Source: Ischnura elegans (Eukaryota > Arthropoda > Insecta > Odonata > Coenagrionidae). From it: a DNA stretch of 64,000 nt. Both the position numbers and the translations under genes were made by a program. Below, in pieces: positions 14,910 to 62,105 of this stretch (position 1 is the stretch's first letter; every line of letters begins with the position of its first letter). The stretch lies in assembly GCF_921293095.1 (NCBI RefSeq), contig NW_025791713.1:1-64000 (forward strand), written 5' to 3'. Below the pieces are notes generated by a model that saw only the letters and a list, made by a program, of their open reading frames with translations, was not told the DNA's origin and did not search any database.

Positions 14910-15180
14910 TCTATAATATATACAACCCGATGTGTGACAGATAGCACACTCACTGATTCACTCACTCATTCACGTATACAAATTCCCGACCACTTCCGGA
15001 CGTGCTGGGAAGGCGAAATTTTTACGGGTCGTGAAGAAAAAATATTCATCGGGGGGAAAAGTCCGAAAACTCGAAAAAGTCGATCGGTTTTCGAGATATA
15101 TCGATCCGAATTAACATTGGAGCCTTATGGGACTAAAACATATTCCATTTTTTGCCTACATTAAAATGTCACGGGATCAT
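14910..15180 (+). other. 5' terminal region of the giant Helitron-like element
   Basis: Starts TCTATAATATATACAACCC, followed by a short CACTCACTGATTCACTCACT run (about 14946-14966) and a GC-richer stretch with CCCGACCACTTCCGGACG. The satellite reading frame runs through this junction to 15164 and gives a chimeric open frame. No conserved protein is recognisable in the non-satellite part. Confidence 0.55.
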
Positions 15181-15198
15181 GAAATGTCACTGACGGAA

Positions 15199-15560
15199 AC
15201 TAGATTTTTTGGCCGATTTTTTTATGTGAAACATTTTGCCATATTTTGTTTATAAGTATTTTTTATAATTTTTTTAAATTTCCAATGCTTTTCTTATGGG
15301 CCTATCTTTGGATTTTTTTAAAACCAACTTATAATCGTTGTAGGAATAAGTCCTTAACTTATGAGATACTAGATTTTTTGGTTGATTTTTTGGTGTGGTT
15401 GCCTTTGCAATTTTTTGTTTAAAAGTATTTTTTTTAACAATTTAAAATTTCCAATGCTTTTCTTATGGGCTCACTTTGGGAATTTTTTTGACCAATTTGC
15501 AATAATCGTAGGACCAATTCAATTTCATGCAAGATACTAGATTTTTTTCTTAATTTTTTG
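15199..15560. repeat. Tandem ~168-bp repeat, two copies plus a partial third
   Basis: Each copy opens with ACTAGATTTTTTGG (about 15200, 15369 and a partial at 15537) and contains CCAATGCTTTTCTTATGGGC (about 15283 and 15450). The copies are clearly diverged. No coding potential is seen. Confidence 0.75.
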
Positions 15561-15724
15561 GCTATCCTTTCATATCCACATGTTAATCGAACTTCGAGTA
15601 ATTAACGATTATGTATTTTCATTGAATTTGCGACTCCTACAACGTTTGGTAACTTACAACACATCCGCCGTGAAGTTTGCATTCCCTCAACACACGATTT
15701 TAAATTTTTCGGAATTTTTTTTTA

Positions 15725-16400
15725 CCACTTCCCGACGTGGTACGGACACCAAATTCAGGTGATTGACGTCTTTCTCGTGCCCCTACGCGCCGCTACCAGG
15801 AGAACGCAGAATAATTAATTTTAACGGGTGACACCGTCGAAAAAGCATGCTTACACTACAGCTACAGAGCCGAAATTTTTATCCAAGGTAAACGATGCCG
15901 CGTTATACAGAACAAGCACTTTAGGTCCCCCGAAAACCCCCTGTGAACCCCCCAAAAAAATAAAAATTACTTAATAAGTCGTATATTTCGTGTACCATTC
16001 ATCCCAGTTGTATCGTTTTTATTGATTCCGAATGGGAATTGTGTCGGCTAAATTCACCCGTCATGTTCAATTATCCTGCCCCAATTACACACCCGCAATA
16101 AAACTTCAAATTTTTAAATGTACATTTCTTAACAAAATAGTAGAGTAAAAAAGGGGTTCCAGGACAAGGACACCTAAAACCGATTTCTTTAAAACACTTC
16201 CCCATAAGGTACGGCTACGAAATTCACAATAGTGATGCCTTATTACAGCGCCTATGCACCGCTATGTGGAGAACACGGAATTGGTAATCTAAATGTGAGT
16301 AATACGGGAGAATTCATTGTTCCCCTACAGTAAGTTCGCTGGAATTTTTACTGTAGGTAGACAAAGACATTTTATGCAAGAAAACCCCTCGATGTTTCAC
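15725..16400. repeat. Diverged direct repeat, ~465-bp spacing
   Basis: Two old copies begin at about 15735 (GACGTGGTACGGACACCAAATTC) and about 16200 (TAAGGTACGGCTACGAAATTC). Each is followed by a CGCC/GCTA..GGAGAAC motif and later by a GAATTTTTA stretch. Identity is low and there is no gene. The related CCGACCACTTCCGGACG stretch at 14990 may be a third piece. Confidence 0.5.
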
Positions 16401-17434
16401 GTGGCTTCCAAGAAGACCAGGGAAAAAATTATTTTTTTTCTGTGAATAGCATGTTCTTCGGTGTTTTCGCATATTTTAGCAGTAATTCCCTTCTCCTATG
16501 ACTCATCGCTAAGGAATTTATTTGGATGATTGTGACCGTTGCCAGTACACTCATAAAAATCCCATTGCATTGCGAATTTCGTTCTGTAAAATGTATTTAG
16601 CCAAGCAATGTGTGTGCAATCTAAATATATTTTTTTTAATTGATATAGGTTAATAAATTGGCAGTATTAAAGTTATTTTTTGACTAAAATTAATACAATA
16701 TTATTCGAAAAATTATTTAAAAATTAAGTCATACGTTTACCATTCTGTCGTATTCTGCGTACTAACAAGCATATAATCAATCTTACACATTTAATTGTTG
16801 TTACGAAACAAAAATTTGCTGCCACAAACTTCCCCTCGCAAAGTTTAAGCCATTTAATTAAGATAATCACATGGCCACGCGCCGGGTTCCATAGTCTGTA
16901 CTCTACACGCTCATTATGTTTCAATTAAAAACATGAATATTTTTATACGAATGTGTTTAGTTATGAAATTGAACTAAGAGTATTTATTTTCAAGTTTCAA
17001 AAATTGTTTATACGTTTTGTTATTAACTATTCAAATTTTGAATGGGCCATTAAAAGACGTTTTAAATTTCACTTGTAATTTCAACACTTTCCATGTATAT
17101 ATTTCGACGAATCCGATAATCTTCCGGTGAAAAGTACAATATGTAGTTCGATATGTTTCATGAGGAATGTGGGCTTGGTTTGGAGACGTTTGCGTGGAAG
17201 AGTCCTATTGGTTTACAGCGCGTTGAATCGGCTGTTTGGTTTACGGAGGAGTCGGTTGATAGTGTGCTGGGACGTGGAGGGTGCACCACGCACCCTTTTC
17301 TCAAGTTGGTTATTGGCTCACGTCCGTGATTTACAATGTTTCTTCCTTCACTGTACAAACGACACGTTGTATCTTTCTATTGTGTTTAATGCTTCCAACC
17401 GTGAGGCGGATCGGGGGATGCCATACTAGACTAG
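16401..17434. other. Non-coding spacer with a dispersed-repeat piece
   Basis: Bases 16418-16570 resemble 21966-22120 (shared CCAGGGAAAAA, TTTTCGCATA and CATCGCT-AGGAAT motifs), a diverged dispersed repeat. From 16570 to about 17110 the sequence is AT-rich without recognisable coding. A more GC-rich patch, 17120-17420, precedes the transposase relic, and I recognise nothing in it. Confidence 0.4.
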
Positions 17435-17960: not shown

Positions 17961-18090
17961 TCAAAGTTCGGACTTTACTCTCCGGCTGTGGCGCCGTGCG
18001 CACGATTTGGACTGCTCGTCGCATAATATGCTCAGCAGTCCATACCACCTTTTCCGGTATAGTCCACAAATTTCCACAGGGAAGAATGAC
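17961..18090. repeat. Short repeat segment with 8-bp inverted repeat
   Basis: Contains GGACTGCT and AGCAGTCC as a perfect 8-bp inverted repeat at about 18009-18041, immediately upstream of the tRNA-like sequence. It may be part of the same short interspersed element. Confidence 0.35.
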
Positions 18091-18163
18091 GCCTCGGTAG
18101 CTTAACTGGCTAAAGCACTCGGCCGGAAATCGAGGGATCCGGGTTCGAATCCCGGTCAAGGCG
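18091..18163 (+). tRNA. tRNA-like sequence, probably SINE head or pseudo-tRNA
   Basis: Folds as a cloverleaf. The acceptor stem 18091-18097/18156-18162 has one mismatch and one G-U pair. The D stem GCTT/AAGC has a 9-nt loop, the anticodon stem CTCGG/TCGAG has loop CCGGAAA, and the T stem CCGGG/CCCGG is perfect with loop TTCGAAT. The Pol III B box GGTTCGAATCC is consensus and the A box TAGCTTAACTGG is near consensus. A T6 run at 18169-18174 could terminate Pol III. The anticodon would be GGA (Ser), but the long serine variable arm is absent and position 33 is C rather than U. It is therefore probably a tRNA-derived repeat, not a working tRNA. Confidence 0.6.
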
Positions 18164-18174
18164 AATGATTTTTT

Positions 18175-19856: not shown

Positions 19857-20856
19857 ATGCGAACGTCATCTGCATCTCAGCAAGGACGTTGGAAGGATAT
19901 CGTGCGCTCCTGTAGAAACCCTGCCGAAGTCCATTACCCGTTGCCGACGATGGAAGGGCCAGTTATGTACGGACATCAGCTCCTGGGCGACTCCCATATG
20001 GTGCGCCTGGGTGCGTATTTGGGGTGGCGGATGGAGGGAGGTAAGTACATACTTATACTATGATGAAGTACCTTTTCCAATAACTTCTCTTCCTGCTTAT
20101 CCCCTGTGATTTCTCACAACAGTTCGCCCTGCCCGCATCGGGTTATGTGTATCGGGGCAGACAGTCCTCCAATTGAGGAGACTCGTGGATGACCACGGTT
20201 ATTTTGCGAAGCCTGTGATCGTCCTTATCGGGTCGAACGACCTCCGTAATGTAAGTGTTCCTATTTCCACTTTTCCGTGAAAGAGAGCGTCAGCGGATTC
20301 CAACTCCTCTCTCGCGGAGAATAACGTATTATTTCTCCCCTTTCATCCAGGATTGCGTATATCGAACGTTGAGGGCCGATATACATCGATTAATAATGAA
20401 GCTGCGGGTGTTGGCCCCTGCAGTTACCTTCCTGACAATACCTCCAGCGCCAGCTATGTGGCGTAATGTCATATACAGGAGACACGTACTGGCGCTGGGA
20501 CGGTGGCTACACCGGTATTACAGATGTAAGATATTACACAGTATTCGCACTCACGTATGCCGGATGACGTTAACCGTTCCTCTCATAACTGACTTCCTTT
20601 ACAGGGGGGATCCGGGTCGTAGACATCACAACTCCTTTTCTTGTCCATCACGGTGGGGTAGACGACACATTTTTTGAGAGGTTAGTATTTCATTCTCATA
20701 TGCTTTTCCAATGCCCAATGAAGGTTGTTTTCATTTCCTTTCCTTCTTCCGTACAGGTATATGGGTAAAGGTAATCGTCGCCGTCCCGACGGTGTCCACC
20801 TTAATCAGAGGGGGATGGAGGTGGTGATGGAATGCTTGGAGAGGAGTGTATGGTAG
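19857..20856 (+). CDS. SGNH/GDSL-type hydrolase, five exons, apparently intact
   Basis: Exons 19857-20040, 20123-20250, 20351-20525, 20605-20680 and 20757-20856 join through four GT-AG introns (82, 100, 79 and 76 bp; phases 1, 0, 1, 2) into 220 codons and a TAG stop without interruption. The four SGNH signature positions are present: GDSH with nucleophile Ser46, Gly73 in V-S-G-Q-T, Asn100 in IGSND, and Asp199/His202 in DGVHLNQRG. SGNH enzymes are serine esterases or acyl hydrolases; the substrate here is unknown. There is no signal peptide or membrane segment. At 220 aa it is a compact single-domain member. An internal ATG at 19950 would give 189 aa and still include Ser46. SGNH domains are known in some retroelements (Ngaro/DIRS, LINE ORF1), but those are usually unspliced. 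Its place 4.9 kb from the 5' end of the island suggests cargo or an accessory gene. No polyadenylation signal is obvious. Confidence 0.82.
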
Positions 20857-24242: not shown

Positions 24243-26716
24243 ATTCGAAGGGTGAAATTCCGCATATTTTCAGTTTACACATACACATTTAAAATTCCAC
24301 GTGGCGGTAACCCATTTTTCGTCGCAAGCGAAAGGGGTTTTCCCTTTCCGGGGGCTCAAAGTCAACAAAGAGCCGATGGAGTGTTCAATGACCTTGCCGG
24401 CGCGGCGCGGATTAGGGGTGTCCGTTGGGTCGGGGCGGCCGCCCGCCATTGCGAAATCCCTAACCCGGCGTAGACTGGGGTTTTCCAAGTTTTTGAATGG
24501 GGAGGAGGGGTGGTGGGAGATGCTTTCTCTGAGGCGGGTACACCTGCATAGGGAGATATGCCCTAAACATGAAACACATTGCCGACAAACACATTCCCCA
24601 ATACTATGTAACCTACTTAATGCATTTACAATATTTATTCACCAACGACATAGCAGCGTAGAGTTATTAATGTCATTCACAGTAACTCAGCAGTAGAACA
24701 TATTAGCAAACAGTAACTCTTGAAATCCGCCAGTAATTAAAAATGGGACTTGTAGCTGGAATTAATTTTTCCTCGTCATAAATCGAATGCGTGGAAAGGA
24801 ATACTTCTTCGCCCATGGACGGACGACCGAGAACCGTTGTTACTTACGCAAGGATTTATGCCAGTGGCGCCGACTCCATGGGGCCTGAGGGGGCCCGAGC
24901 CCCCTCAAAGATTCGTTGGGGGGGGGCGGAGTCCCCTCAATATTTCTAGAAAATAATTAAGTTATATTATGCTTTGTGAAATCACAAAAATATATTGGTA
25001 ATTTTTATTTCCCATTTTTGACGATAGTTACCTTTTAAAATAAATTCAACAATGTGTTAAAACAAATAATTATAAGGTGAAGCAGGTTGACTGAATCAGG
25101 TGGTGTGAATCATGATAGTGTTTCGGTGCTGCGACACACTTTGAATTTAACCTCTTCCCGGGGCAAGACCTCGGATATGGGCCCCCCCAATATTTTTTAT
25201 AAGTCGGCGCCCCTGATTTATGCTGATCAGATTATCTAATTAATATTTACGTGTTTCCTCAGATATGTATATGATGACACAATGAATTTGCTAACTCTGT
25301 ATTTTGTATTTGCAATTTTTTTTATTGAATTGCATCTTCGTTGAAATGTCTCCTTCCCTCCGGGCCTCCTCTGTTTACGTGAAACATCAAAGTGGATAAT
25401 TGTTCATTGAACCTAAATTTTAATCTTGAAATTGCGTTCCTCCATTCATCATGAGAAATCTCAATTTTTAAACGAAGTTATTACGTCAATATCAGCCCAA
25501 GTAAGCGTCAAAATTACTCACGTTGACATAAGGACGGAAATTTCTAAAAACGTTATAATTGATCGCAGAACTTCGTTCAAAAATTGTTATCGCTGCTCTG
25601 AAGACGAACGATACCATTCTTGTTTCACATTTCTCGAGAAACGAACACAACTTTATTTCGCTAAAGGGATGAATAAACAATAACTGACCGCCGACCCAAC
25701 CCACACTGCTCGTGTGGTCGTTCACAGTCCCCGTTGACTGGAAGGGCCCGGGGCGATTACTTCCCAAGAGGGAGTAATCCCCGTCCTTAAGGGCCTTCTT
25801 TCTTTATGTGAAATAGCTATGTGGCTAATTGTTGTTTGAACTTTAATTTCATTCTTGGAATTGAATTCCTCCATTCATCATGACAAATCTCAAATTTTGA
25901 ACGAAGTTCTACCGACAATATTAGCGACAGTAAGCAGCAAATTTATTCATGTTGACTTCAGGGCGGAAATGGGTAAAATCGTTGAAATTGATCGCAGAAC
26001 TTCGTTTAAAAATTGTTATGGCTGCTTTGAAGATGAACAATGGCATTCATGATTAACATTTTTCGAGAAACGAACAATAATTTATCTCGCAAAACTACTG
26101 CATAAACAATTCGTCACGGTCGGCCCACGAGCCTCTGGGGTTCCTTCACAGACCTGCGATACAGGTACCTGCTCAGCCCTCGGGCGATTCCACCGTAATA
26201 CATCCGCTACGCTCCTGCGTTATGGCCTGCTTACCTTATATCAAATATCTATGTGGATATTTATCCAGTAAACGTAAATTGCAGACTTGCAATCGAAGTC
26301 CTCGTTTCATTATGAGAATTTCGAAACTTTGTACGACGTTCTAACGTCAATTTCAACCTATGTATGCAAGAACATTTTCCTTATTGACGCTCCGGCGGAA
26401 CACCATACAAAGGTTGATAGTTACATTAGAATTTTTTTAGTGTAAGCGCTACTCTTAACACGAACAATTCCATCCTTGAGTTATCTTTTTCTAGAAGGAA
26501 ACGTGAAAATATTTCGCAAAACTCCTAGATTGACAATTTATGAGCGCGGACGCTTTTCGCTTTGAGAGTCGTTGGGAGACAGGGGTTACGACTTACTTTC
26601 TAACCTTTTCCATGTTTATTTTATCTATATAATTATTTCGCTACGATTTCCTATAAATACATATCTTTGGTAATGCTCTTCCTATGTCATGTATTTCTTC
26701 TTATCGTCTGTATTTC
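24243..26716. repeat. 2.53-kb composite repeat, copy 1 (D-A-B-C)
   Basis: Repeated at 26773-29250 with an offset of 2530-2532 bp and high identity. It has a GC-rich leader D (24243-25356), which includes a G-run/C-run segment around 24883-24940, and three related subunits of about 430-490 bp: A (25357-25791), B (25792-26224) and C (26225-26716). The subunits share a TATGTGG-type opening, a CGTT/CCTC..CATTCATCAT core and an AACGAAGTT motif, so they descend from one ancestral tandem monomer. Short open frames inside are by-products of the repeat. Confidence 0.85.
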
Positions 26717-26772
26717 ATCTTCAAATTATTTGGGGACACTTCATGCCAATTTTTAAAAAAACCCTGACAAGA

Positions 26773-29250: not shown

Positions 29251-30258
29251 CCTCCGGGCCTCCTCTGTTTACGTGAAACAGCTATGTGTATAATTGTTCA
29301 TTGAACCTAAATTTTAATCTTGAAATTGCGTTCCTCCATTCATCATGAGAAATCTTAAATTTTAAACGAAGTTATAACGTCAATATCAGCCCAAGTAAGC
29401 GTCAAAGTTACTCACGTTGACGAAAGGGCGGAAATTTCTAAAAACGTTATAATTGATCGCAGAACTTCGTTCAAAAATTGTTATCGCTGCTCTGAAGACG
29501 AACGATACCATTCTTGTTTCACATTTCTCGAGAAACGAACACAACCGTATTTCGCTGAAGGGATGAATAAACAATAACTGACCGCCGACCCAACCCACAC
29601 GGCCCGTGTGGTCGTTCACAGACCCCGTTGACTGGAAGGCCCCGGGGCGATTACTTCCCAAGAGGGAGTAATCCCCGTCCTTAACGGCCTTCTTTCTTTA
29701 TTTGAAATAGCTATGTGGCTAATTGTTGATTGAACTTTAATTTCATTCTTGGAATTGAATTCCTCGATTCATCATAAGATATCTCAAATTTTGAACGAAG
29801 TTCTACCGACAATATTAGCGACAGTAAGCAGTAAATTTATTCATGTTGACTTCAGGGCGGAAATGGGTAAAATCGTTGAAATTGATCGCAGAACTCCGTT
29901 TAAAAATTGATATGGCTGCTTTGAAGATGAACAATGGCATTCATGATTTACATTTTTCGAGAAACGAACTATAATTTATCTCGCAAAAGTACTGCATAAA
30001 CAATTCGCCACGGCCGGCCCACGAGCCTCTGGGGTTCGTTCACAGACCTGCGATACAGGTACCTGCTCAGCCCTCGGGCGATTCCACCGTAATACATCCG
30101 TTACGCTCCTGCGTTATGGCCTGCTTACCTTATATCAAATATCTATGTGGATAATTGTCCAGTAAACGTACATTGCAGACTTGCAATCGAAGTCCTCGTT
30201 TCATTATGAGAATTTCGAAACTTTGAACGACGTTCTAACGTCAATTTCAGCCTGTATA
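29251..30258. repeat. Partial third A-B-C unit
   Basis: A third run of subunits (A 29251-29690, B 29691-30118, C 30119-30258) without the D leader. C stops abruptly at 30258, where a Transib-like sequence begins, so the subunit array was broken by, or recombined with, that element. Confidence 0.8.
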
Positions 30259-46803: not shown

Positions 46804-47690
46804 TTAGAGATGGATCGAATCGCAGATTTCATGAACTCGAATATCGATTTCGAATATTAAATCATTGCTTGAATATTCGAATATAGTTGGATCCGGATTT
46901 AACGTCTTCGCTTTCAACGTTTTTCCGCATTTAGCGTTCATTTTTTTCGGTCCCGATTCATTCCCTATTACGACATTGTAAAAATTATCCGTATTTAGTG
47001 TTTCCGCATTTTGCGTTTTTCCGCATTTATGGCCGTAAAAATATTTCCCCCACAAGATCTTTTTGCCCGATTTCACGTTATTTCCTGACGGCTCGTGCAA
47101 ATTATTATCCAAATCTTCCAATTTATGCTCATCAACAAGATCAGTCTCATGAAAGTTTACCAAGAGTCGATAGAATCTACCGGGGAACGATTCTTGAACT
47201 GCTTTCTTCCGCGACTGCAGCGCGTGGACCTTCAACTCGAAAGCTGGGTGATTTGTCTTCTCGTTATGTATCGCTTCCCTTCCGATCCAAACACCAGACA
47301 CTTTTTGTATCAAATCCGCTCTAATGGAGCTAAGTCATTCCTTGATAACCTCTAACTACCTTATCCTTCACTTCGTGAACTTCAATGATACGTGACGACT
47401 GATGACACGAGTTATCCTCGGAGGGCCGCTACAATGACGGTTTCCTCGTAATGTTTTGAACTGACGGCTTATGCCCCTGTCAACTCTACTCCCTACGGGT
47501 AGTCCATTGTTAGCCCAATATTTTTCCAGTCGGCTACTTACTCTTTTCAAAAGAGGCCCAATATCATTTGCGCAGTTCTCTACAGGATTCTTTCTGTAAT
47601 CCATTCCAAGGACAGTTTCCACGGAGGAACATCGAAAGAACCGAGGAAGTGTTTCCCCTGTCATGATCATGAGTGAAAGCATTCTATCCT
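46804..47690 (-). other. Unrecognised minus-strand open frames
   Basis: Two open frames in tandem, 47682-47368 (104 codons) and 47313-46804 (169 codons). Part of the second follows a degenerate repeat (KCGKTxxAxTLN, from TTTCCGCATTT-type DNA repeats near 46920-47030), so that portion is not protein-like. The first has ordinary composition but no motif that I know. They may be remnants of the hAT-like element's gene or chance. Confidence 0.25.
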
Positions 47691-50252: not shown

Positions 50253-50257
50253 GGGCG

Positions 50258-51076
50258 CACAGTGGGCTAGAATCGAAATAAGCTGGCTAAAACCTCAAAA
50301 TCGATTTTTTTGAGATAGGAAGTTGAAACTTCGCATACACATTCTCAAATAAATTGTGCATAACTCTTCAGATTATTTTGGTCCTGTGTTTTCACTTTAA
50401 CAATATATGTGAGGTCAAAGTTGAGCAAATTTAGCGAAAAACGACCACCCTCGTTTTTTTCTGAAAACTGCCGACTTTATCCTCGTGCAGTGGTTTTATA
50501 AATAGTTTTATCGACAAAGCTGTTATACCATCTTAATTGACACTTTTTATTATTTCATTTGAAGGGTTTTTAAAGATTTTGTTTCATCAATAACCATAGA
50601 TACATAACAAAATGGCGGAGCCTGTTTTCAACCCATTTCTTGACATAAACGTAGAAAAAAAGGTGACATTATCAACGGCTTACACTAAGTAACTTATATC
50701 ATGTCGTTCTTAGAAGCTTCTTTATTGTGAATCTAAAGTAAAACCTTGCACCAATTTGAAACCCCGAATTTTAAATCGTTTCCTCGAACGCAAGGACGAC
50801 TCCGGTTCTGGCCGGCGGCGGCGGAGAGTACGGCGACGCGGCAAGCGGGTGGATGCAATATGGTCTCATTCACTTTTGTGAGTGGATAACAGATATATTA
50901 GTGACAGAAAATAATCACCAGAAAGTAAAATTAATGAATATTGCTACGAATGACTCTCATTATGCATTCGCTGGGCACTGCAAGAGGTGCACTGATAGGT
51001 TTCTTTCTTTGAGTGCATTCCATGGATAATGGACTTTAATCGCGTGATTAAAGTGGGGAAACGGACTCTTTAATTA
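50258..51076 (+). repeat. Left terminal inverted repeat of Transib-like element
   Basis: Complementary to 52771-53590 over its whole length. The arm includes a GC-rich patch (GGCCGGCGGCGGCGG, about 50809) conserved in both arms. Heptamer CACAGTG is 50258-50264, followed after 21 bp by GCTAAAACC. Confidence 0.85.
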
Positions 51077-51474
51077 ACAAACAAGCTCTATTTCAAGGCA
51101 AGAGCCCTGGATGATCCATGCCCTCCACTTCCTAATCTGCCATACATATTTAAAGGCCTTCTGACAACGGTCGTTTTATAGTATTGTTGTAGTGCCGAGC
51201 CCATCGAACTTGTTTTTGGTTGAACTCCTGCTACCTTTAAAAGTTTCGGAAGGCATATTACTCACATCGAATAACGTATTCTTTCTAAGAAATACAGTTC
51301 ATTTTCATCTATGCCTTGTGCTCAATTATAACTATTTATTTAAATCTCTTACCTATATATCAACGTCATTATTCTTAATAAACTGCGCTGCTGACAAAAT
51401 GGTTATTTTTCAGAAAAATTTAACCATACAAACATAACATAAAGAAAAGCAACACAATTTACACTTTTCCCAAC

Positions 51475-51875
51475 TTACATACTGCAATAAGCACTGTCAG
51501 TAATAAAAGGTTCCTGTTTTTCATTCACTATCAGACGAGTTTTTATCACTTTCACTGTCTGAGCTAAAGCATTGTTTTCCTTTTTCAAAAACAGATCCAT
51601 TACATTTTTCGGCAAGCTGTGTCTTTCCTCCAGTTTAATTGGCGTAATTTTTGTCATTATCAGTTATGACATTAAGAGTTGTCTTCGGAATAAATCACTA
51701 TTTGTGGCCACTCGTGCCATTTTTCTTGTCAACCGATCACGGAACTTTCTCACGTCTTATACCGTGCCTGTATTGCTTCCCCAGACAGTTGTCGCAATTA
51801 AGAATGGACTCTTGCAAACTCAGCTCCTTGAATGATTACCTTATTAACGGTTGGTGGCATACCATAATTGCATTT
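51475..51875 (-). pseudogene. Transib/RAG1-like transposase relic inside the element
   Basis: Minus-strand fragments in changing frames read GMPPTVNKVIIQGAEF (about 51864-51817), LSGEAIQARYK (51788-51757), KFRDRLTRKMARVATNSDLF (about 51749-51689) and a basic C-terminal tail to 51475. LSGEAIQARYK aligns with the MSEEAQEACN block of the relic at 17.9 kb and, from memory, with the region of RAG1 holding the last catalytic glutamate; the following R-K-x-x-R-x-A-T block fits the same region. Frameshifts separate the blocks, so it is not functional. Confidence 0.55.
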
Positions 51876-52770
51876 AAAGCGTCAGTGAGAGAGAGAGAGA
51901 AAATTAAATTATTTGGAGAGGAAATCTAGAATATTTGTGATGACTTTTGAATATCCGTGCCTGTTTCATGCTTCGGCTAACGAACAGCATTTTTTACCTA
52001 AACAAGAAGGCACAAAGGTGCTCACGAGTAATAATTCTTGAGACATAGGCCCTCGTTCCCACGTGCGATTATATTGCGCATGTCCTAACTGCTGTCAAAG
52101 CCGTGTTTGCAAATTAAAGTGCACTTTATATGCGACGCGAAACTTGGATCTGTGGAAATGCACGTTAAGATTCGAGTCGCAGTAAGATGCAGAACCAATT
52201 TCGGAAACTTCTTATGTAACCTCTGCTACAATAATTTCACTCGGGTAAATGAAATCATGTGCTCGCGTCACTCTCTCATTGCCTGGGTTAATATTATATC
52301 CCTGGCATTTCAGATTTTCGAAGACCCATGCACTGAAATTTTGTGAGCTGCATGGACACAATTACTTAGTGAGAGGGCCTCTTAATCTGACATAACATAA
52401 TACTCGGGGTTGCATTTTATCCACTTGGCAAGTGTTCTTCTTGCCTCCGAGGATGGTCACTGTATCTTCCTTTTGCATTCGTTTTCCACCTATTCCTTCT
52501 CTAGATATAACCCTGAAAACATGAATTGACGTCTATCTGCACTGGCTAAACAAGAGCCACATGGAAACTGTTCTGCATAAGGAATAGTTATTAGTAGCTT
52601 TAAATCGAGAATATAAACTAAATAACCTTACTGGATACGAATAATGAACTCTTCAAGCACCAAGACAGTACTTGATTTGACACAATTCGGCAAAATCAAG
52701 TACTGTATTGAGCCATTTCCCATCACGTTTAAGGAATATATTAATTGTTATTGTTAAACAGTTTATTGCT

Positions 52771-53590
52771 TAGTAAAAGAGTCCGTTTTCCCACTTTAAG
52801 CACGCGATTTAAGTCAATTCTCCATGGAATGCACTCAAAGAAAGAAACCTTTCAGTGCACCTCTTGCAGTGCCCAGCGATTGCATAATGAGAGTCATTCG
52901 TAGTAATATTAATTAATTTTACTTTCTGGTGATTATTTTCTGTCACTTATATATCTGTTATCCACTCACAAAAGTGAATGAGACCATATTGCATCCACCC
53001 GCTTGCCGCGTCGCCGTACTCTCCGCCGCCGCCGGCCAGAACCGGAGTCGTCCTTGCGCTCGAAAAATCGATTTAAAAATCGGGGTTTCAAATTGGTGCA
53101 AGGTTTTACTTTAGATTCACAATAAAGAAGCTTCTAAGAACGACATGATATAAGTTACTTAGTGTAAGCCGGTGAAAATGTCAACTTTCTTTCTACGTTT
53201 ATGTCAAGAAATGGGTTGAAAACAGGCTCCGCCATTTTGTTATGTATCTATGATTATTGATGAAACAAAATCTTTAAAAACCCTTCAAATGAAATAATAA
53301 AAAGTGTCAATTAAGATGGTATAACAGGTTTGTCGATAAAACTATTTATAAAACCACTGCACGAGGATAAAGTCGGCAATTTTCAGAAAAAAACGAGGGT
53401 GGTAGTTTTTCGCTAAATTTCCTCAACTTTGACCTCACATACATTGTTAAAGTGAAAACACAGGGCCGAAATAATGTGAGTAGTTATGCAAAATTTATTT
53501 GAGAATGTGTATGCGAAGTTTCAACTTTCTATCTCAAAAAAATCGATTTTGAGCTTTTAGCCACCTTTTTTCGATTCCAGGCCCACTGTG
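52771..53590 (-). repeat. Right terminal inverted repeat of Transib-like element
   Basis: Inverted copy of 50258-51076, ending GCCCACTGTG at 53590 directly before the GGGCG duplication. The spacer between the heptamer and GCTAAAAGC is 22 bp here. Confidence 0.85.
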
Positions 53591-53595
53591 GGGCG

Positions 53596-54239
53596 TTCCG
53601 CTCGCATTCCCGTTAATTCCCTACGCTCTGACTATGGGGACGATTATCTTTCTACGTAGACTCTATTGTTTCATTTTTCGCGTTCCCTTACACTCGCAAT
53701 CCTTCATTCATTACGTAGCTTACCCCTACTCCTTCACTGACGTATCAATGTCGTCACACTCACTTACCTTCGTCGTGTACAAAAGTTTTCTGTTAAAACT
53801 GTCACATTTACATAATTACATCCGTCAACAGCATTCACAAAAGATAACATGCTTCATTACCTACTTCCATCGACATACGCCACAAGGTCTTCATGCATGC
53901 ACTTCATATGTTCCTATTTCTTTTCCATGTTCTTGTATTAAAGTTTATTCCAGCTAATAATTACACTTCACCTATGCCCACTAAAATACATTACATCATT
54001 CTTACGATATTAAATATTGCCGTGATTACCTACCGCCGATCGGATTTTTGCAATACTTTTAACGAACTCACTTCGTATGCAGCACTTCAACACTTCTTCC
54101 ATTCTGACATTGCAATTCTCATTTGCAGGTTACACCGAGGACTCCCTCACCTGGTGTTCGACATTCCCTACATTTCCTTGTCTCTTCCAATAAGTAAGTA
54201 TTAACACATTCTGCCTCTGATACTTTTCCGCCTTCCGCG
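53596..54239 (+). other. Upstream region of RepHel
   Basis: Pyrimidine-rich with no recognisable domain. A donor-like TAAGTAAGTATT at about 54190 and an acceptor-like TACGCGCACTAG ending at 54256 could define a 65-bp intron. The frame V-T-P-R-T-P would then run into the protease domain after residue R6. The promoter is probably here, but no clear core element is visible. Confidence 0.35.
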
Positions 54240-57200
54240 ATGCATACGCGCACTAGGGGGTTCTCCTGCGTTGCTGCGGGGTCTTTCCATCAGGGCAACT
54301 ACGACCTTTTCGGTTGGAGTGCAGGTTCACAATGTGTAGTGAACTCCTCCTGCGCGGCAGTTTGGGGCTTCATCGACGGAAAATTCAATACGGACGTAAT
54401 AAATTCACTCCTTTTCTGCGGAAACAGGATATATAGAACTTTGCGTGATGATTCTAAAAAGGGCATAGAACGTTACCTTTACCCGGAAGAATTACCCGGG
54501 TCCTTAGAAGTTATGGGAAACGTAGTCAACATGGACGCATCAGACGTGCACTACGGCATATATCCACTCAATGTCTCAGATGTCGAGGGATATGTCATGT
54601 CACTATCACATGTCCTTGAGAACCTCCTATCACAAACCCAAAATGACATTGCATTCCTTTTCACCGGTCGTCTCCGTTCAGTTACCTTTTGGCGCCGATG
54701 TGGCAACATTTACTTATTCGACTCTCACGCTGTGGACTACGACTACCGAACCTGTGTCGACGGTAGGGCCAGCTTGTTTAAATGCGAAACGTACGCATCT
54801 CTGGCCTCTATGCTTCTTTCATTCAACAACTACAGCCCTGATGATAACCAATACACCATTACACGGCTCATTTTCACACGCCCAGCGGACGTTTCTTCTT
54901 CTGCAGCATGTAGCCAAAGGACGATCGGCGCTACGGAAATTACAGGTATTCGTTCACGGAGCAGCGTCACTCAGGATCCCAAACTGCTTCACATGAAACC
55001 TGTTGTCTTATTATTTAGGTTAGATAACCCACTCACTGCTCCTCCCATGACCGGAAAAAGAATGGGTCGTCCCAAGAAGGTCAAACGCGGAAGACCGAAG
55101 GTACTGGATACCACGAGAGACGAGCAGTTAGCGGCCGCAAAAAAAAAATATGCAACAAAGAGACCAGACGTTAACCTGCGCTCAGTTCGTCGCTACAGCC
55201 AAGACAATCCAGAAGTGAATAGGGGAGCCGTGAGGAGGTACGCCGCCGATCACCCGGAGGTTAACAGGGAAGCCGTGAGAAGGTACGTCGCCGAGCACCC
55301 GGAGGTTAACAGGGAAGCCGTGAGAAGGTACGTCGCCGAGCACCCGGAGGTTCACAGGGAAGCCGTGAGAAGGTACGTCGCCGAGCACCCGGAGGTTAAC
55401 AGGGAAGCCGTGAGAAGGTACGTCGCCGAGCACCCGGAGGTTAACAAGGAAGCCGTAAGGAAGTACGCCACTACGCATCCGAGGGTTCACACGAGTGCTA
55501 TCAGTCGATTGCAGGAGATCAATCCAGAGTCATCGCGGCAGACGTCGGTGAGGTACAGGTTGCGTAATCCGGATTTACAGACCATGAGGCACATTCCCGC
55601 TGCTCTCGGAAAAAAGATAGTTAGCAATGGCCCCATGGCCTATTGGAATACAGCGGCACTGGACGACGTCGCGCCTTTCAAGTTGAAGAGGGTGTCTCTT
55701 TGGGAAGAGGGCGTGCATCGATGCTCTCACTGTGGCGCTAGGCTTTTCGACGAGGAGAAAGAACGTAGAAAGTGGTGCTGCGGGGAGGGATCGTTTAATG
55801 TGCAGCGGCTGCCTTCCCTAGACGCACCGTTTTATTCGAATAGAACATTCTTGGGTAGATCGCGAGCGTACAACGACCTGTTCGCCTTCTGCGCGCTAGA
55901 GGTCAGTGGTGGGTACAGGCACCCAAGTGGGCTGTCTTTCTTCAAGATAGAAGGTAGGATGTACCATCATGTGCACGCTCTGGAAGCTCGAGGACAAAGG
56001 TTCACCACGAGAGGAGGTAACACTCAGTTCGTGAACCGCTGCCGCCTTTACATAGACGACGGCGAAGAACGAAGAAACATAGCGCTGGGAAGAACGCTCA
56101 GCACGGACGTCATTGAAGACATTGAGTGTTACATCACAAGTGTGAATCCGTTCATCGAGGAATTCCGTCGCCTGAGTGCGGAGCCATCAATCGACGCGCA
56201 CCTCACTTTCGAAGTGACGAGTAGATCCACTCACGGTCCGAGACTTGGAGATAGACAAACTGGTATCGAGGTGCACGCCGCCATGAGCACGGAGGACGCA
56301 GCATACGATCCTAGAAAATTGACAATATGGAAGAGGAGTGACCGAAGACCGTCCTCAATAGACCTATTGAGTCCTCTTATGGAGCCGTTCCAATATCCGT
56401 TGCTCTACCCCCACGGTAATTTGGGTTGGCACGTGGGAATGAAGGATAACCAAGGAAGAAAACTCACGCAGTTCAACTACGCAAGATGCCTACTGCTGTC
56501 AGAATGCCGATTTTCCCACTTGGGGCGTTTGTCGCAGGCGTGGCAAGTAGAAATGTTCGCCCGGTACGAAGAAGAGCGCCTACGTTTCATCCGCTATTCT
56601 CAGATGCGATCCTCCTCCGCAACCGCCACGCGGATCGCACCTCTCGACGAACTCATAGACGTAGGAAGGCAGGAACAAGGACAGGTTCGACGAGATATCG
56701 AGGGTGACGAAACAGTTCAAGGAGAAGGTGGCGTGCGTCCGGGGAAAGTATACCTTCCGAGCACGTTCACCGGAGGACCCCGGTACATGAAGGTCCACTA
56801 CGAGAACGCCATGGCTCTAGTATCGCGGTTGGGAGCGCCGACTTACTTTCTCACGTTTACCTATAGCGCTCACTGGGAGGAAAATAGAAAGGCGTGCCCC
56901 CACGGAAGCAAGCGCAGTGATCCTTCCACAGCCTGCAGGATATTTAGCATAAAGCTCGGGGAATTGATAAGAGACTTGCGTAGTGGAGCATTTTTTGGGC
57001 GCCCCGCCTACTTCGTCTACGTCATCGAAATGCAAATGCGGGGTTTGCCTCACGCGCACATAGTTTTCAAGGTACACGGAGGGGAACCGGTACAAGCGGC
57101 AGAAATCGACGAGGTAATTCGCGCAGACATTCCATCCGAAGACGAGGCCGGTGGACGACTTAGAAAGTTAGTTTTGCAACACATGATCCACGGCCCATGC

Positions 57201-59810
57201 GGTACCGACTACCGCACCGACTTTCCATGTTGGGATGACGCGAAAGGTTGTTGCGGTAAATTCTATCCCAAACCCTCTTGCGAAACAACCCACGTGGACG
57301 AAAGAGGTTTCGTTCAGTATAGGCGCAATTATTCTAATCAGGGGATTATCACCACGCGACGCAGGGAAATTACAGTGCACGACGGATGGGTGGTCCCGTA
57401 CAACGCCGCGCTGATGTTGAAGTACGAGGCACACATAAATTTAGAACTTGCATCCACTCGCCGCGTAGTTAAATATTTGTTTAAATACCTCATGAAGGGT
57501 GGCTCACTGCAAAACGTCACCGTGACCCCGATAGGATTGCAAGAGAACGAGGTCGAGCAGTATGCCACAAAGCGCATGATCGGCGCCAGCGACGCCTGCT
57601 GGCGTCTGCTTGAGTTCCCCATTTCTAAATTGGAGCCCACCGTGGAATGCCTTCCCGTCCACTTGGAAGGGAAACAACAAGTCATATACAGGCCTCGCGA
57701 AAGTAATTTGACAGACATCGCGTCTTCCGCCTCTTCCAAATTAATGATTTACTTCGACCGTCCGCGAGACCCCATTTTCGACGACTTGACGTACCAGAGT
57801 TTCTACGAGACGTGCATAGTCCACTCCCGTCCTCCGCGCACTGAGGTCTATTTCGAGCACCCCGACGGCGTGCATTACGTTACCGCTCGCCAGCGCGGGG
57901 AAAAAGTCTGTAGGTTGCTTTGGATTTCACCTAACCGAGGCGAACAGTATTACTTAAGGATCCTTCTCATGACCACTCCTTGCCGTGGTTACGCCGACCT
58001 TTTGTCCCGCGGGGTAGGTCATTGCCGCACGTTTCAGGAAGTCGCGCGTACTTTAGGCTTGATCGAGGACGAGGAGGAATTCAGCGATGCCATGAAAGAG
58101 GCCTCGGCGTTCATGCTTGCAAATGCATTGCGGTCATTCTTCGTTCTTCTCTGCAATGTAGGCGCACCAGCGGCCATCCTTTGGGAGAAATTTAAGGATG
58201 CCCTGAGTGAGGATCATTTAGACCGGCATCCCGAAAACCCCGAGGTAGCGTACCGATTAACTCTTTTAGCTATCGATAGGAGCCTCAGGCGTCAGGGTTC
58301 TTGTCTCACCGATCACGGGCTTCCGCACGTCGACGACGACACTACCGAATTGAGTAGAGAGCAGGTTCGTTACGGCAGGGAACAGTTGAGGTCTTTCGTG
58401 GAGGAGTGGGAGCCAAGGCTTTCCGAGGACCAGAAACGTGTTTTCTCCCACGTCAAAACCCTCATCCAGGATGAAAAAAGAGGGGATAGAATATTGTTCC
58501 TCGACGGGCCGGGCGGCTATGGAAAAACCGCACTCATCAGCGTCATTCTAGCGTACGCGCGCGGACACGGATTTGTTGCTTTGGCAGTTGCAAGCTCGGG
58601 GATCGCGGCGTCCAACATGGAAGGAGGGACTACGGCCCACAGCATGTTCCGCCTCCCCCTCGATTTAGGGGACGGAACTGGATATTGGAACGTGAGCAAC
58701 GGTTCGCAGCGGGCTCAACTCGTGAGAGAAGCAAAAATCATTATCTTCGACGAGGCACCGATGGCTCACCACTTTTTGTTTCAAATTATAGATAGGTCAC
58801 TTAGGGATCTTATGGATAATGATTTGCCGTTCGGAGGAAAGATATTCGTCTGTTCCGGTGACTTTAGGCAAATCCCACCCGTCGTGGAAAAAGCGCGCAC
58901 CCCCGCAGATGTAGCGCGTGTTTCCCTGCGGTCGTCACCGATGTGGAGGATCTTCAAGGTATTTTCCTTGACAACGCCACAACGAACGAGTAACTGCAAG
59001 GATTACTCCGACTTCCTCCTCCAGGTTGGCAACGGCACCATCGACTCCATCCCCTTCGGCGAGGGACGGCTACAAGAGACGCTGATACCACTTCGAGGAC
59101 TAAGGGCTGTGACATCTCTGCGGCAACTTATCGACGAGGTCTTTCCACCCTGCGTTCTGAGCCAACCCGAGCTCTGCGCAAAGAGAGCGATTCTTTCCAC
59201 GTTGAATGTAAACGTCAAGGAAATAAATGAGTTAGTTCTCGACTCTTACGAAGGATGCCTGCATGAGCTGCGGAGCGCCGACAGCGTCTACAAAGAAGAC
59301 GACGAGGGACTCGATGTGGACATCCAACTGTTGAACAAGGCATCCGGAAAAGGCATTCCGGACCACGTTTTGCGCCTCAAGGTCGGATCGGTATGCCTAA
59401 TCATCAGGAATTTGAATATTGCAGACGGACTGGTGAATGGGACCAAAGTCATCGTGACCGCTATTACACGCCGCCTCGTCACGGTCCGAATTCCCGGGAA
59501 GACACACCTCATCGGCATACCCCGGATCAGTTTCATATTCCCATTCACCGAAGGTTCTCCGCTTAAAATACTCCGCCGCCAGTTCCCCTTGGCCTTAGCA
59601 TACTCCATGACAGGACATAAGAGCCAGGGCCAGACGATAGAGTACGTCGGAGTGGACCTCAGAACCGACTGTTTCACTCACGGTCTACTCTACGTGTTAT
59701 TGAGCCGCGTGAGAAGGCCGGAAGACATAATCGTACTCGTTCCGCCGAAGAAACTCATCGATGGGATACCTTACGCCAAAAACGTCGTTTTCCCAGAGCT
59801 TTTACTATGA
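54240..59810 (+). CDS. Helitron Rep-helicase (RepHel), intact, with N-terminal protease-like domain
   Basis: An unbroken 1856-codon frame. Residues 1-200 resemble a papain-fold cysteine protease of the herpesvirus-deubiquitinase-like kind: SFHQGN before GSQC with Cys32, and FDSH with Asp161/His163. An AT-hook-like GRPKK/RGRPK follows at 275-290, then nine 15-residue repeats (310-444) and a Cys cluster (C495, C498, C513, C514). The Rep domain has a FLTFTYS motif near 870, the HUH motif PHAHIV (His938, His940) and the two catalytic tyrosines in KYLFKYLMKG (Tyr1079, Tyr1083), so it can cleave and rejoin single strands in rolling-circle transposition. The C-terminal PIF1-type helicase has Walker A GPGGYGKT (1423-1430), DEAP (1504), GDFRQIPP and TGHKSQGQT (1791). 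There is no C-terminal endonuclease, unlike Helentrons. The start ATG could be replaced by an upstream spliced exon. Confidence 0.93.
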   Translation: MHTRTRGFSCVAAGSFHQGNYDLFGWSAGSQCVVNSSCAAVWGFIDGKFNTDVINSLLFCGNRIYRTLRDDSKKGIERYLYPEELPGSLEVMGNVVNMDASDVHYGIYPLNVSDVEGYVMSLSHVLENLLSQTQNDIAFLFTGRLRSVTFWRRCGNIYLFDSHAVDYDYRTCVDGRASLFKCETYASLASMLLSFNNYSPDDNQYTITRLIFTRPADVSSSAACSQRTIGATEITGIRSRSSVTQDPKLLHMKPVVLLFRLDNPLTAPPMTGKRMGRPKKVKRGRPKVLDTTRDEQLAAAKKKYATKRPDVNLRSVRRYSQDNPEVNRGAVRRYAADHPEVNREAVRRYVAEHPEVNREAVRRYVAEHPEVHREAVRRYVAEHPEVNREAVRRYVAEHPEVNKEAVRKYATTHPRVHTSAISRLQEINPESSRQTSVRYRLRNPDLQTMRHIPAALGKKIVSNGPMAYWNTAALDDVAPFKLKRVSLWEEGVHRCSHCGARLFDEEKERRKWCCGEGSFNVQRLPSLDAPFYSNRTFLGRSRAYNDLFAFCALEVSGGYRHPSGLSFFKIEGRMYHHVHALEARGQRFTTRGGNTQFVNRCRLYIDDGEERRNIALGRTLSTDVIEDIECYITSVNPFIEEFRRLSAEPSIDAHLTFEVTSRSTHGPRLGDRQTGIEVHAAMSTEDAAYDPRKLTIWKRSDRRPSSIDLLSPLMEPFQYPLLYPHGNLGWHVGMKDNQGRKLTQFNYARCLLLSECRFSHLGRLSQAWQVEMFARYEEERLRFIRYSQMRSSSATATRIAPLDELIDVGRQEQGQVRRDIEGDETVQGEGGVRPGKVYLPSTFTGGPRYMKVHYENAMALVSRLGAPTYFLTFTYSAHWEENRKACPHGSKRSDPSTACRIFSIKLGELIRDLRSGAFFGRPAYFVYVIEMQMRGLPHAHIVFKVHGGEPVQAAEIDEVIRADIPSEDEAGGRLRKLVLQHMIHGPCGTDYRTDFPCWDDAKGCCGKFYPKPSCETTHVDERGFVQYRRNYSNQGIITTRRREITVHDGWVVPYNAALMLKYEAHINLELASTRRVVKYLFKYLMKGGSLQNVTVTPIGLQENEVEQYATKRMIGASDACWRLLEFPISKLEPTVECLPVHLEGKQQVIYRPRESNLTDIASSASSKLMIYFDRPRDPIFDDLTYQSFYETCIVHSRPPRTEVYFEHPDGVHYVTARQRGEKVCRLLWISPNRGEQYYLRILLMTTPCRGYADLLSRGVGHCRTFQEVARTLGLIEDEEEFSDAMKEASAFMLANALRSFFVLLCNVGAPAAILWEKFKDALSEDHLDRHPENPEVAYRLTLLAIDRSLRRQGSCLTDHGLPHVDDDTTELSREQVRYGREQLRSFVEEWEPRLSEDQKRVFSHVKTLIQDEKRGDRILFLDGPGGYGKTALISVILAYARGHGFVALAVASSGIAASNMEGGTTAHSMFRLPLDLGDGTGYWNVSNGSQRAQLVREAKIIIFDEAPMAHHFLFQIIDRSLRDLMDNDLPFGGKIFVCSGDFRQIPPVVEKARTPADVARVSLRSSPMWRIFKVFSLTTPQRTSNCKDYSDFLLQVGNGTIDSIPFGEGRLQETLIPLRGLRAVTSLRQLIDEVFPPCVLSQPELCAKRAILSTLNVNVKEINELVLDSYEGCLHELRSADSVYKEDDEGLDVDIQLLNKASGKGIPDHVLRLKVGSVCLIIRNLNIADGLVNGTKVIVTAITRRLVTVRIPGKTHLIGIPRISFIFPFTEGSPLKILRRQFPLALAYSMTGHKSQGQTIEYVGVDLRTDCFTHGLLYVLLSRVRRPEDIIVLVPPKKLIDGIPYAKNVVFPELLL
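55167..55571 (+). repeat. 45-bp coding minisatellite in RepHel
   Basis: Nine 45-bp units encode a 15-residue basic repeat (VNREAVRRYVAEHPE). The central four units (about 55257-55436) are almost identical at the DNA level; the outer ones are diverged. Length changes by whole units keep the frame. The repeats follow the AT-hook-like segment and look suited to DNA or RNA binding, which is inference from charge only. Confidence 0.9.
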
Positions 59811-60520
59811 GGAATTGTTCATGGATTTCACACATCTCTTTGCGATGACCCCAAGCGTGCCTTGCATCGTCAGCGGTATATACCATTAGGGAGACTAGGT
59901 GCCGTGTCTACAGGCCGGTCTCCGGATTTGTAGAGTAGGGAGAAGGCTACCTTGGGTGTTTCCACCGCGTGGAGAGTACATTTCCGCAAAGACATACAAT
60001 CGCCTGCTTAATGGGAAGTCACCGAATCCGATATCGTCGCTGGATTAAATATCACTAACGATTACGCAAACGAGTGCCTACATCGCCTACTATCTCGTAT
60101 GACTACAGTGGAGTGGTGTGAGTGTGACGACCCTCGCCGGCCTTCCATCGCCATCGGTATATATCGTAGGGAGACCCGTGCCGTTTCTACAGGCCGGTCT
60201 CCGGGATCGAGGAGTAGGGAGAAGGCCACATAGGGTTTCCCCACTACACGCACAGTCCATTTCTACGAAGAATATTTCTCCACCGATTCCAAGATCGTCG
60301 CTGGATTGCATTTAATTTACGAGGATGCAAAAAATTATCTCCATACTCCGTCATTTCCGTGATTTCAGTGGAGAAGGGTGGCAAAAGAACCTGGCTTGCC
60401 TTCCATCGTCATCGGTATATACCATCACCAAGACCAAGCGCCGTAACCACAGGCCGGTCTCCGGATTATTCGAGTAGGGACAAGGTCACCAGGGACGTTT
60501 GCGAGGAAATAACTCATGGA
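59811..60520 (+). repeat. Three ~270-bp tandem repeats after RepHel
   Basis: Units begin near 59859, 60140 and 60398 (spacing 281 and 258 bp) with GCCTTCCATCG-like and CGGTATATA motifs. All share ACAGGCCGGTCTCCGG about 50 bp further on, then GAGTAGGGA(G/C)AAGG. The conserved core suggests a structural or regulatory 3' element of the Helitron, though local duplication alone could explain it. Confidence 0.8.
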
Positions 60521-61990
60521 AAATGGGCCTAAAAATTAACTTCTTATAGCCCTTCACCTACACGCTGCGTTACAATGTCACCGTCATAGGTGCACACTTA
60601 CAATAACTTACCGAAAATTAGAAAATGCAAAAAAATGAACCCATAAAAACTATGACCATCCAACCTATGCATGTTACCTTTTCAGTTTGGAAATATAGCA
60701 TTAAGAAGTACGCATGAACAAGAGAAAATATACAAAAATTAACCATTATTAGTTCCATTAACATTGAACTGTAATATAGTTGTTTCTTTCTCCCTTCTTG
60801 TACCACATTTTCTGCATTTAATATATACTTCATTTTAAAGGAACTGCTATGATATCTTTTGTGATATATGTTCACCGTGTTATGCCTATATTTAAATATT
60901 TCTCAGTGTTATGCTACTCAACATTCCCACACCATATCACCGCATTCCAACTGTTTACAACCTTGTAAATCACAATCTGCATGCGTATCAATTTATCAAC
61001 TTGGAGCCGTCTTACTACCGTACATAAATTGTTGCAATTAAGTTACGAAATACGACTAATGTTCTCTCTATCTCAGCATTGCTTGAAATTCCTGTCACAG
61101 GATCTCAGCTACTCCTGCCACACCGACGAGAATGTATATGTACCTAAACTTGATTTGCATGATCACTGACGCCTTGTATTTATTTCTACGTTCTCTATTA
61201 CGAGTAATACGTGTGCGTCATTCAATATCAGAGACATCTGTCTGTGTACATTTAGCTAATACTTAGTAGTAGTTGTAGTGCATGCCCCTCTCAAATCCTA
61301 ACTGCAGCCTCAACGTGGCGAGGGGGTGGCAACAATCGAAAGCCATTTCACGGACTTTTCAATTAGTGCTACGTCTTTACGACGCAAGCATAACCAATTC
61401 CGATTCCGTATTCATTTCGCAGGTGAACACTGCATAAAATTACTTAAGGCAGACTTTGCGTTCCTCTCCACGAACGATTTCTCGTGGATTCCAATGTCTT
61501 TCTTCACCGTATTTGGCTTCCGATTGGCAAATGCAGTGGGTGATAACATCTGTACGCTCGATAGAAAGAGAAAAAGATTGCTTACTTTGAGCGAAAATTT
61601 CTTCTTCGTACTTCTTTGCCGCGGTAAAACTTACGATGCAAACCGGACAACGGGATATATCACGTGAATCCCAACCATTATCCTTATTGTCAACGTACGT
61701 GCACAATGCACCAGTTTCCATCTCCGAAATCTTTCCCGAAAAGTATTATCGCAGTGAGAGATCGCCAGGAGATATAGGCGGGGGAGGAAAACGGTGCTTC
61801 TTCGCCACAGGGGCGATTTCAACGATCGACAAGGGGAACGCAACCCTCGCAGATAGAAAATTTCTAACATATATTTTAGAGCACTGCAGAACGAGGTACG
61901 GGCTTCAAACTCACCTGGTCGATGCCTTTCCCCTCGGAGTACTTACCCATTGATGCATGACGCGATATTGTTCACACCGGGGGACATGCC
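60521..61990. other. Spacer between RepHel repeats and 3' terminus
   Basis: AT-rich with short unsupported open frames on both strands (longest about 113 codons). No domain or nested element is recognised. Confidence 0.4.
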
Positions 61991-61994
61991 GTCG

Positions 61995-62105
61995 CCCGAC
62001 GAAGTCGGGGAATGGCGAAGCCGTCCAGGGAAGCGGCCGGCGCCGCCGGCCGCGGGGGGGTTCTAGGGGGCGTAGCCCCCTAGCGAGCGCGCGCAGCGCG
62101 GCGAG
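61995..62105 (+). other. 3' terminal hairpin cluster of the Helitron-like element
   Basis: Four perfect hairpins in 110 bp: CCCGAC/GTCGGG (61995-62009, loop GAA), GCGGCCGGC/GCCGGCCGC (62033-62053, loop GCC), CTAGGGGG/CCCCCTAG (62063-62083, loop CGTAG) and CGCGC/GCGCG (62088-62100, loop GCA). The last stem ends 5 nt before the junction. Helitrons normally have one short hairpin near a CTRR end that acts as transposition terminator. Here the end is CGAG and there are several hairpins. Confidence 0.75.

Follow-up and report, generated by a model that had tools for sequence, protein, structure and literature searches.

The first 64,000 nucleotides of contig NW_025791713.1 from the damselfly Ischnura elegans (assembly GCF_921293095.1; bases 1-64000 of the contig here called C71) were analyzed and are referred to as the window. 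Genome comparisons were carried out within the 1.72-Gb assembly of 110 contigs. The window holds a putative giant Helitron of 47,196 bp at 14910..62105, which starts with TC at its 5′ end, ends with CGAG at its 3′ end and lies between an A (14909) and a T (62106) of a 16-bp satellite. Tandem Repeats Finder placed 16-bp units at 1-14904 in the left flank (1..14909) and units of the same family at 62106-63997 in the right flank (62106..64000). Between the termini lie a spliced hydrolase gene, tandemly repeated cargo, a nested transposon and a RepHel open frame, followed by three hairpins. Unless noted otherwise, features are on the forward (+) strand.

The boundaries were set by comparison of three genomic copies, in which sharing ends at exactly TC 14910 and CGAG 62105, with a one-T uncertainty (14910 or 62106). 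Using the first 201 bases as query, 1,462 candidate places were obtained and all 40 scored matches begin at query base 1; the last 220 bases gave 857 candidate places, and 40 of 40 scored matches extend to query base 220. A pattern of 30 bases from the 5′ end was found at 383 genomic sites, whereas the reversed control gave 0. The TC start, a canonical Helitron feature claimed in the preliminary description of this locus, is supported by the three copies and by the scored matches. Entry between A and T without duplication, likewise canonical and claimed earlier, was observed at non-tandem junctions: the final base of the left flank is A in three of three cases (window, C16 and the first unit at C14) and the first base of the right flank is T in three of three (window, C14 and a short element beside C13a). 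Tandem copies join G to T. A list of 20 distinct 3′ ends, and of 5′ ends, was made with patterns requiring CGAG or TC and is no independent test of those letters, for which the independent evidence is the terminus searches (201 and 220 bases) and the three-copy comparison.

Among the 40 scored matches per terminus, terminus pairs about 47 kb apart occur at three loci. The genome search proposed in the preliminary description, for further copies carrying both termini, recovered the complete unit on contigs C16 (568352-615756, + strand, 47,405 bp) and C15 (1226194-1179000, − strand, 47,195 bp), both bounded by the end bases of the window copy and set in other flanks. All three copies start with TCTATAATATATACAACCCG and end with GCGCGGCGAG. 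Beyond these ends, the window copy is bordered by satellite and the C15 copy by Helitrons on both sides; the C16 copy has another Helitron on its right and, on its left, plain sequence that ends in AA. The two right-hand Helitrons have related starts. Mismatches number 20 over 47,195 positions between window and C15, 73 over 47,192 between window and C16, and 77 over 47,192 between C16 and C15 (divergence 0.04-0.16%). Private substitutions amount to 8 in the window, 65 in C16 and 12 in C15, and the C16 copy has a 208-bp insertion. Such a pattern is the trace that would be expected from transposition of a 47-kb unit.

The RepHel frame extends over 54198..59807 (1,870 codons stop to stop), with the first shared Met at 54240. 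Pfam searches identified a Herpes_teg_N-like protease domain, a Helitron_like_N domain (HUH/Y2 Rep) and a PIF1-type helicase, and residues 508-1848 were aligned to Helraiser (7lcc; E 9.3e-157, 526.6 bits). The motifs HAH, YLFKY and Walker A GPGGYGKT are located at 952, 1093 and 1437. The protein has the composition of a canonical Helitron RepHel, namely an HUH nuclease with paired tyrosines and a superfamily 1 helicase of PIF1 type. OTU protease and AP endonuclease, markers of Helentron/Helitron2, were absent among the 10 Pfam families found at E 0.001. The frame is open in all four full copies (window, C16, C15 and the C14 relative described below), and the protein differs from that of the window by five amino acids in C16 and one in C15. 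Between window and C14, the ratio of nonsynonymous to synonymous substitution rates (dN/dS) is 0.225 (Sd 87.3, Nd 63.7), well below 1, and substitutions fall 28/30/94 over the three codon positions; among the open reading frames (ORFs) of at least 75 amino acids examined (124 counted, window versus C14), the third-position excess is clear only for RepHel. Three further RepHel loci were read in part, and that at C13:16.19 Mb is open as far as fetched, over 1,857 codons.

The best database match of RepHel is an I. elegans protein. Relatives occur in leafhoppers, psyllids and others, with identities reaching about 73% over the region searched, and many have the same protease-like domain. In the comparison with the leafhopper and psyllid relatives (P0005-P0017), an identity of up to about 73% between damselfly and leafhoppers in the Rep region seems high for such distant insect orders, which hints at horizontal transfer. 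The Herpes_teg_N-like domain (54282-54737, RepHel residues 29-180) scored E 0.00038 and 20.6 bits, below the Pfam cut-off of 25, and is annotated likewise in the leafhopper and psyllid relatives; a full-text literature search found no report linking a Helitron with peptidase C76. In-frame 45-bp repeats at 55164-55523 (e.g., EAVRRYVAEHPEVNR) differ in number between RepHel copies. Just 3′ of RepHel, 59855-60489 contains three diverged copies of a unit of ~275 bp with GGTATATACC and CCGGTCTCCGG motifs. IMG/VR gave no match to RepHel or to exact pieces of either element end.

The hairpin-rich 3′ end noted earlier was recovered both by folding and by pairing counted over 15 chosen 3′ ends (13 distinct). 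Hairpin 1 (62033..62053) has 78.6% of cells paired. Hairpin 2 (62063..62083), CTAGGGGGC-GTA-GCCCCCTAG, has 99.1%, and two of its pairs show changes on either side. Hairpin 3 with the terminus CGAG (62084..62105) has 97.8% and the same end base in the three copies. A hairpin near the 3′ end, as in canonical Helitrons, is thus present. The outcome of the controls was mixed. The percentage paired, the number of cells changed on both sides (14 versus 4.7) and the covariation score were higher than in any of the 500 shuffles. The count of 4 pairs with changes on both sides was reached by 125 of 500, and that of further pair types (6) was below the shuffles (8.8). These shuffle controls ignore relatedness of the ends.

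According to the preliminary description, the satellite array retains an unoccupied copy of the target. The ungapped flank alignment on which this relied was reproduced: 14821-14909 agrees with 14101-14189 in 85 of 89 bases, and 80 of 89 bases agree between the right flank (from 62106) and the sequence from 14190 onward. Six best joint sites were those common to the top-20 lists of left and right flanks, and the best joint empty site in the left array is indeed position 14189 (76/80 and 74/80; joint score 150/160). As evidence this is weaker than was claimed: in a control with shifted right-flank starts, 15 of 1,799 offsets scored at least 150 jointly (best 153), because the 16-bp monomers resemble each other. 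With a false-match rate near 0.8%, the satellite test alone gives good support and is not conclusive. The TCTTTTCT variant follows 22 of 54 GAA-ending monomers versus 1 of 426 CAA monomers in the left array, and 4 of 10 versus 2 of 50 in the right array. The monomer types at the break would fit a single split monomer, with one mismatch: TATTTC is followed by G at the right junction and by C in the TCTTTTCT variant.

An older giant element is located on C14 (13073124-13024545, 48,580 bp); its RepHel resembles P0001, an I. elegans protein from the same contig. The element follows window positions 24243-50257 and 53591-62105 in largely collinear order, and differs by more copies of the 24-30 kb repeat, some internal insertions and mostly different sequence over 16.6-24.2 kb. 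The nested transposon at 50258-53590 is missing, an empty site being found there. On the left, a short family member begins after ...GTGTA, and the right flank is TATGTATT; this arrangement is a double insertion at A|T. Relative to the window, the element has diverged by 1.0-1.7% over 29.2-44.4 kb, by 3.1% over 44.4-48.8 kb, by 8.3% over 48.7-50.3 kb and by 6.6% at the 5′ end, with a RepHel dS of 6.8%. Because divergence along the element is uneven, the lineages have probably exchanged parts. The RepHel stretch 57910-59910 is 99.6-99.8% identical to C14, versus 94-98% in its surroundings, and resembles a gene-conversion tract.

The 5′ subterminal region (14910..16563) is common to short family members, with 92-98% identity to elements on C2, C5, C11, C13 and C14. 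Other copies with the two termini on different, shorter elements had been named beforehand as a finding that would speak against a single unit. Short elements of about 3.0-4.4 kb that share 14910-16563 do carry these termini, but the complete unit recurs with both. Many family members are arranged head to tail, the CGAG of one directly joined to the TC of the next. In short-member arrays on C2, C11 and C5 (L034, L035 and L036), this arrangement is precise, with periods of 3,030 and 3,201 bp on C2 and C11. Head-to-tail junctions are compatible with a circle intermediate and are not proof of rolling-circle transposition. At C13:4.91-5.11 Mb, four RepHel loci each have two hydrolase loci ~18.65 and ~26.13 kb upstream, which suggests that this cluster may consist of tandem giant elements. 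No 5′ ends of the cluster were found among the scored or listed matches, and a variant-specific pattern gave one C13 site.

The spliced hydrolase of the preliminary description was resolved as an SGNH/OSK-type gene at 19857..20856. It has five exons (19857-20040, 20123-20250, 20351-20525, 20605-20680 and 20757-20856), four GT-AG introns and a 220-codon frame, which may begin only at the ATG of codon 32. It was first traced through a one-exon OSK match (4.3e-6) at 20110-20277; the spliced product matches OSK at 1.9e-15 and Lipase_GDSL_2 at 7.4e-11. The sole matches in two protein searches were two I. elegans paralogues, 68% and 90% identical, which agree with the exon joins. In the 68%-identical paralogue the catalytic motifs are, by inspection, changed to GDAYMV and DGINLN. 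The C16 and C15 copies contain the same exons with the same exon identities, and the C14 element gave no match. Hydrolase-like exon matches number 171 genome-wide, and the listed ones collapse to 86 loci, a count covering listed exon matches only, extra exons of entered loci being omitted.

Fifteen of the 40 listed RepHel matches have a hydrolase within 50 kb upstream, and all 21 resulting pairs are on the same strand (expectation 0.0025 per RepHel); a downstream hydrolase at up to 50 kb accompanies five of the 40, including three in the C13 cluster. The hydrolase-RepHel distance ranges from 1.3 to 48 kb. An upstream co-oriented hydrolase accompanies 10 of 13 near-full RepHel matches of at least 95% identity (exceptions C14, C15:4.74 Mb and C3:117.86 Mb), although these 10 include the three near-identical copies and four C13-cluster loci, so that independent cases are fewer. 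Away from any listed RepHel are 66 of the 86 hydrolase loci.

Four of six compared hydrolase genes are intact (the window gene and three of its five relatives). At C1:21.53 Mb, exon 1 has a 10-base gap and a stop precedes the second Met; at C13:3.96 Mb the same stop is accompanied by another. Non-zero changes define a dN/dS ratio for 14 pairs, and in every one of them it falls below 1. Nine pairs have at least 15 synonymous changes and ratios of 0.25-0.38, and each of the nine involves a damaged copy. For C13:3.96 Mb against intact genes, dN (0.07-0.08) is not below the intron and flank divergence (0.05-0.06) and dS (0.26) is far above it; intact copies among themselves show Sd of 1.0-5.5, numbers too small to judge. 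These comparisons suggest that the frame may have been conserved over a long time, the evidence for selection being mixed.

Other cargo was characterized as follows. A tRNA-Ser(GGA)-like gene or tRNA-derived sequence is located at 18090..18164 (ARAGORN; Rfam RF00005, 55 bits). By self-comparison, 24243..30253 consists of tandem repeats with a 2.5-kb unit and subrepeats of about 430 bp, and its copy number differs in C14. At 50258..53590 (no strand assigned), the nested DNA transposon reported earlier was confirmed by inverted repeats of about 820 bp with ends CACAGTGGG and by GGGCG on both sides, a 5-bp duplication. By its end motif and duplication length this element may be Transib-like; the Pfam scan of ORFs gave no transposase domain for it. 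Outside RepHel, 450 stop-to-stop ORFs (the 150 longest, then 300 of 354 of 40-61 amino acids) gave no transposase in Pfam. At E 0.01, the three ORF lots gave one, two and eight Pfam families; the best non-OSK matches, CC4_RECK (0.0011), SF3A3 (0.0013), DcpS_C (0.0024) and GalP_UDP_tr_C (0.0039), were treated as chance. For probe 39600-40200, 40 of 50 candidates were scored; full-length matches were confined to the four giant copies, and most others covered only its first 200 bp, a dispersed repeat. Probe 46850-47450, with 1,165 candidates of which 40 were scored, represents a dispersed family. The interior is thus part element-specific and part common genomic repeats, as judged from one probe of each kind. 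No donor locus was found for 39600-40200, the sole element-specific stretch tested.

The island is very probably one transposition unit, that is, a giant and potentially autonomous rolling-circle transposon of the Helitron superfamily. RepHel would nick at the TC end, and helicase-driven strand displacement would proceed rightward through the whole 47 kb until it is halted by the 3′ hairpins, with cleavage at CGAG. A circle would then enter either an A|T site or, beside another Helitron, a G|T junction, giving rise to head-to-tail runs. The size of the element would derive from a lineage that retained its interior (hydrolase gene, tandem repeats and nested transposons) and not from one recent capture.

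Several points weigh against this interpretation. It is based on the genome comparison of copies and not on observed transposition. Only the window copy has two plain flanks, the C16, C15 and C14 copies adjoining other Helitrons on one or both sides, and the window-C14 divergence varies along the element. A C14 codon opposite the window RepHel frame reads as a stop in the base map; since the C14 frame starts two codons after that of the window and is open for 1,853 codons, this stop was taken as its upstream limit. Two of the further RepHel loci are broken, with longest open stretches of 1,547 codons (C15:4.74 Mb) and 874 codons (C13:5.08 Mb). The last 130 bases, folded as a single strand, have only a slight advantage over shuffles (z -1.69), 15 of 200 of which do as well. 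Finally, the canonical 3′ CTRR is not found at the end, which is CGAG in the three copies, CTAG being present 22 nt inside (62080-62083). The Helitron polarity proposed earlier is borne out by the RepHel orientation, the TC start and the hairpin-rich end; because CTRR is lacking, the element is filed as a variant within the superfamily and not as a canonical member.

Among other explanations, the best surviving is a two-element origin, in which the 5′ end of a short non-autonomous Helitron and the 3′ end of a RepHel Helitron, together with the intervening DNA, were fused by end bypass when the first 3′ stop failed, and the fusion then multiplied. The likeness of 14910-16563 to short elements (92-98%) and a shift in base composition at about 54 kb point in this direction, and bypass is documented for Helraiser in the available text of PMC4778049. 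However, it bears on how the unit arose and not on what it is now. The layout is shared by the C14 element, and rearranged pieces of the same cargo lie upstream of RepHel at C15:4.74 Mb, so that any fusion would be older than the split of these lineages. Moreover, in a self-BLAST of the island (E 1e-8, >60 bp) the 5′ end did not reappear upstream of RepHel. We consider such an origin possible but on balance doubtful.

That the 47-kb copies were made by segmental duplication or assembly error is very unlikely. The very low divergence (0.04-0.16%) would agree with it, as would the small size of the window's contig (109,894 bp) and the satellite at both window ends, but the three copies stop matching at the same two bases with different flanks, and these bases are also family ends (30-base pattern, 383 versus 0 reversed). 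Such exact ends contradict duplication, because duplication would carry flank along. Enlargement of an ordinary 6-10 kb Helitron by transposons inserting after its arrival in the satellite, as the nested element with its 5-bp duplication and the dispersed family at 46850-47450 might suggest, is the least credible explanation of all, because C16 and C15 hold the same nested material at the same places (BLAST 99.8-99.95%) over the whole aligned length, so that it was aboard before the copies moved.

Helraiser is about 5-6 kb in size. Compared with Helraiser/Helibat1 as presented in the available text of PMC4778049, where a hairpin acts as terminator and its failure leads to read-through, the damselfly element is 47-48 kb long, ends with CGAG rather than CTAG, contains several hairpins and adds the N-terminal Herpes_teg_N-like domain and a spliced gene. 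In the part of PMC6431247 at hand, Helitrons are typically 6-7 kb, 14 kb in fungi and up to 39 kb in maize; the 47,196 bp found here agree with the earlier placement among the large Helitrons. Gene-capturing maize Helitrons share with it a rolling-circle nature and a large interior load, but are described in the same part of PMC6431247 as carrying gene fragments, whereas the damselfly giants encode an open RepHel and, in the window lineage, an intact extra gene. The CTRR is listed among insect Helitron features in the accessible portion of PMC6544945.

The nearest precedent is the Texim-Helitron association of fish, for which the available text of PMC4021074 describes SGNH hydrolase genes 5′ of Helitrons and no such association in Oikopleura, amphioxus and sea urchins. 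In both cases a multi-intron SGNH hydrolase lies 5′ of the Helitron coding region, here on the same strand (15 of 40 RepHel matches, 21 of 21 pairs). The likeness is one of gene arrangement, and the damselfly case differs from that text in its insect host and in the distance of 1.3-48 kb from RepHel, the hydrolase of the window lying inside a unit with mapped ends. It can be put forward tentatively, as a possibility not far short of evenly balanced, that in this lineage the SGNH/OSK-type hydrolase is no passing cargo but a standing second transposon gene maintained by selection for the element's spread or transmission, and that fish and insect Helitrons share, by descent or repeated recruitment, a two-gene design going with giant size. 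This reading is weakened in that the hydrolase dN/dS comparisons carrying it all involve damaged copies.

A literature search, lying outside preprints and most subscription papers, found no I. elegans Helitron and, in titles and abstract openings, no Helitron of this size. A giant size with mapped ends and copies, a CGAG end and an insect hydrolase-Helitron linkage are reported in none of the available portions of PMC6431247, PMC4778049, PMC4021074 and PMC6544945. The size limits of eukaryotic rolling-circle elements are an open question, to which a 47-48 kb unit at several sites of an animal genome, above the maize figure, is relevant. Ends fixed to the base, together with little change between copies, point to a recently mobile element of unusual size, and the near-identical copies ease a population test of recent activity. 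As an insect Helitron travelling with an intact SGNH hydrolase, it opens a fish-insect comparison that can test whether such genes serve the transposon.

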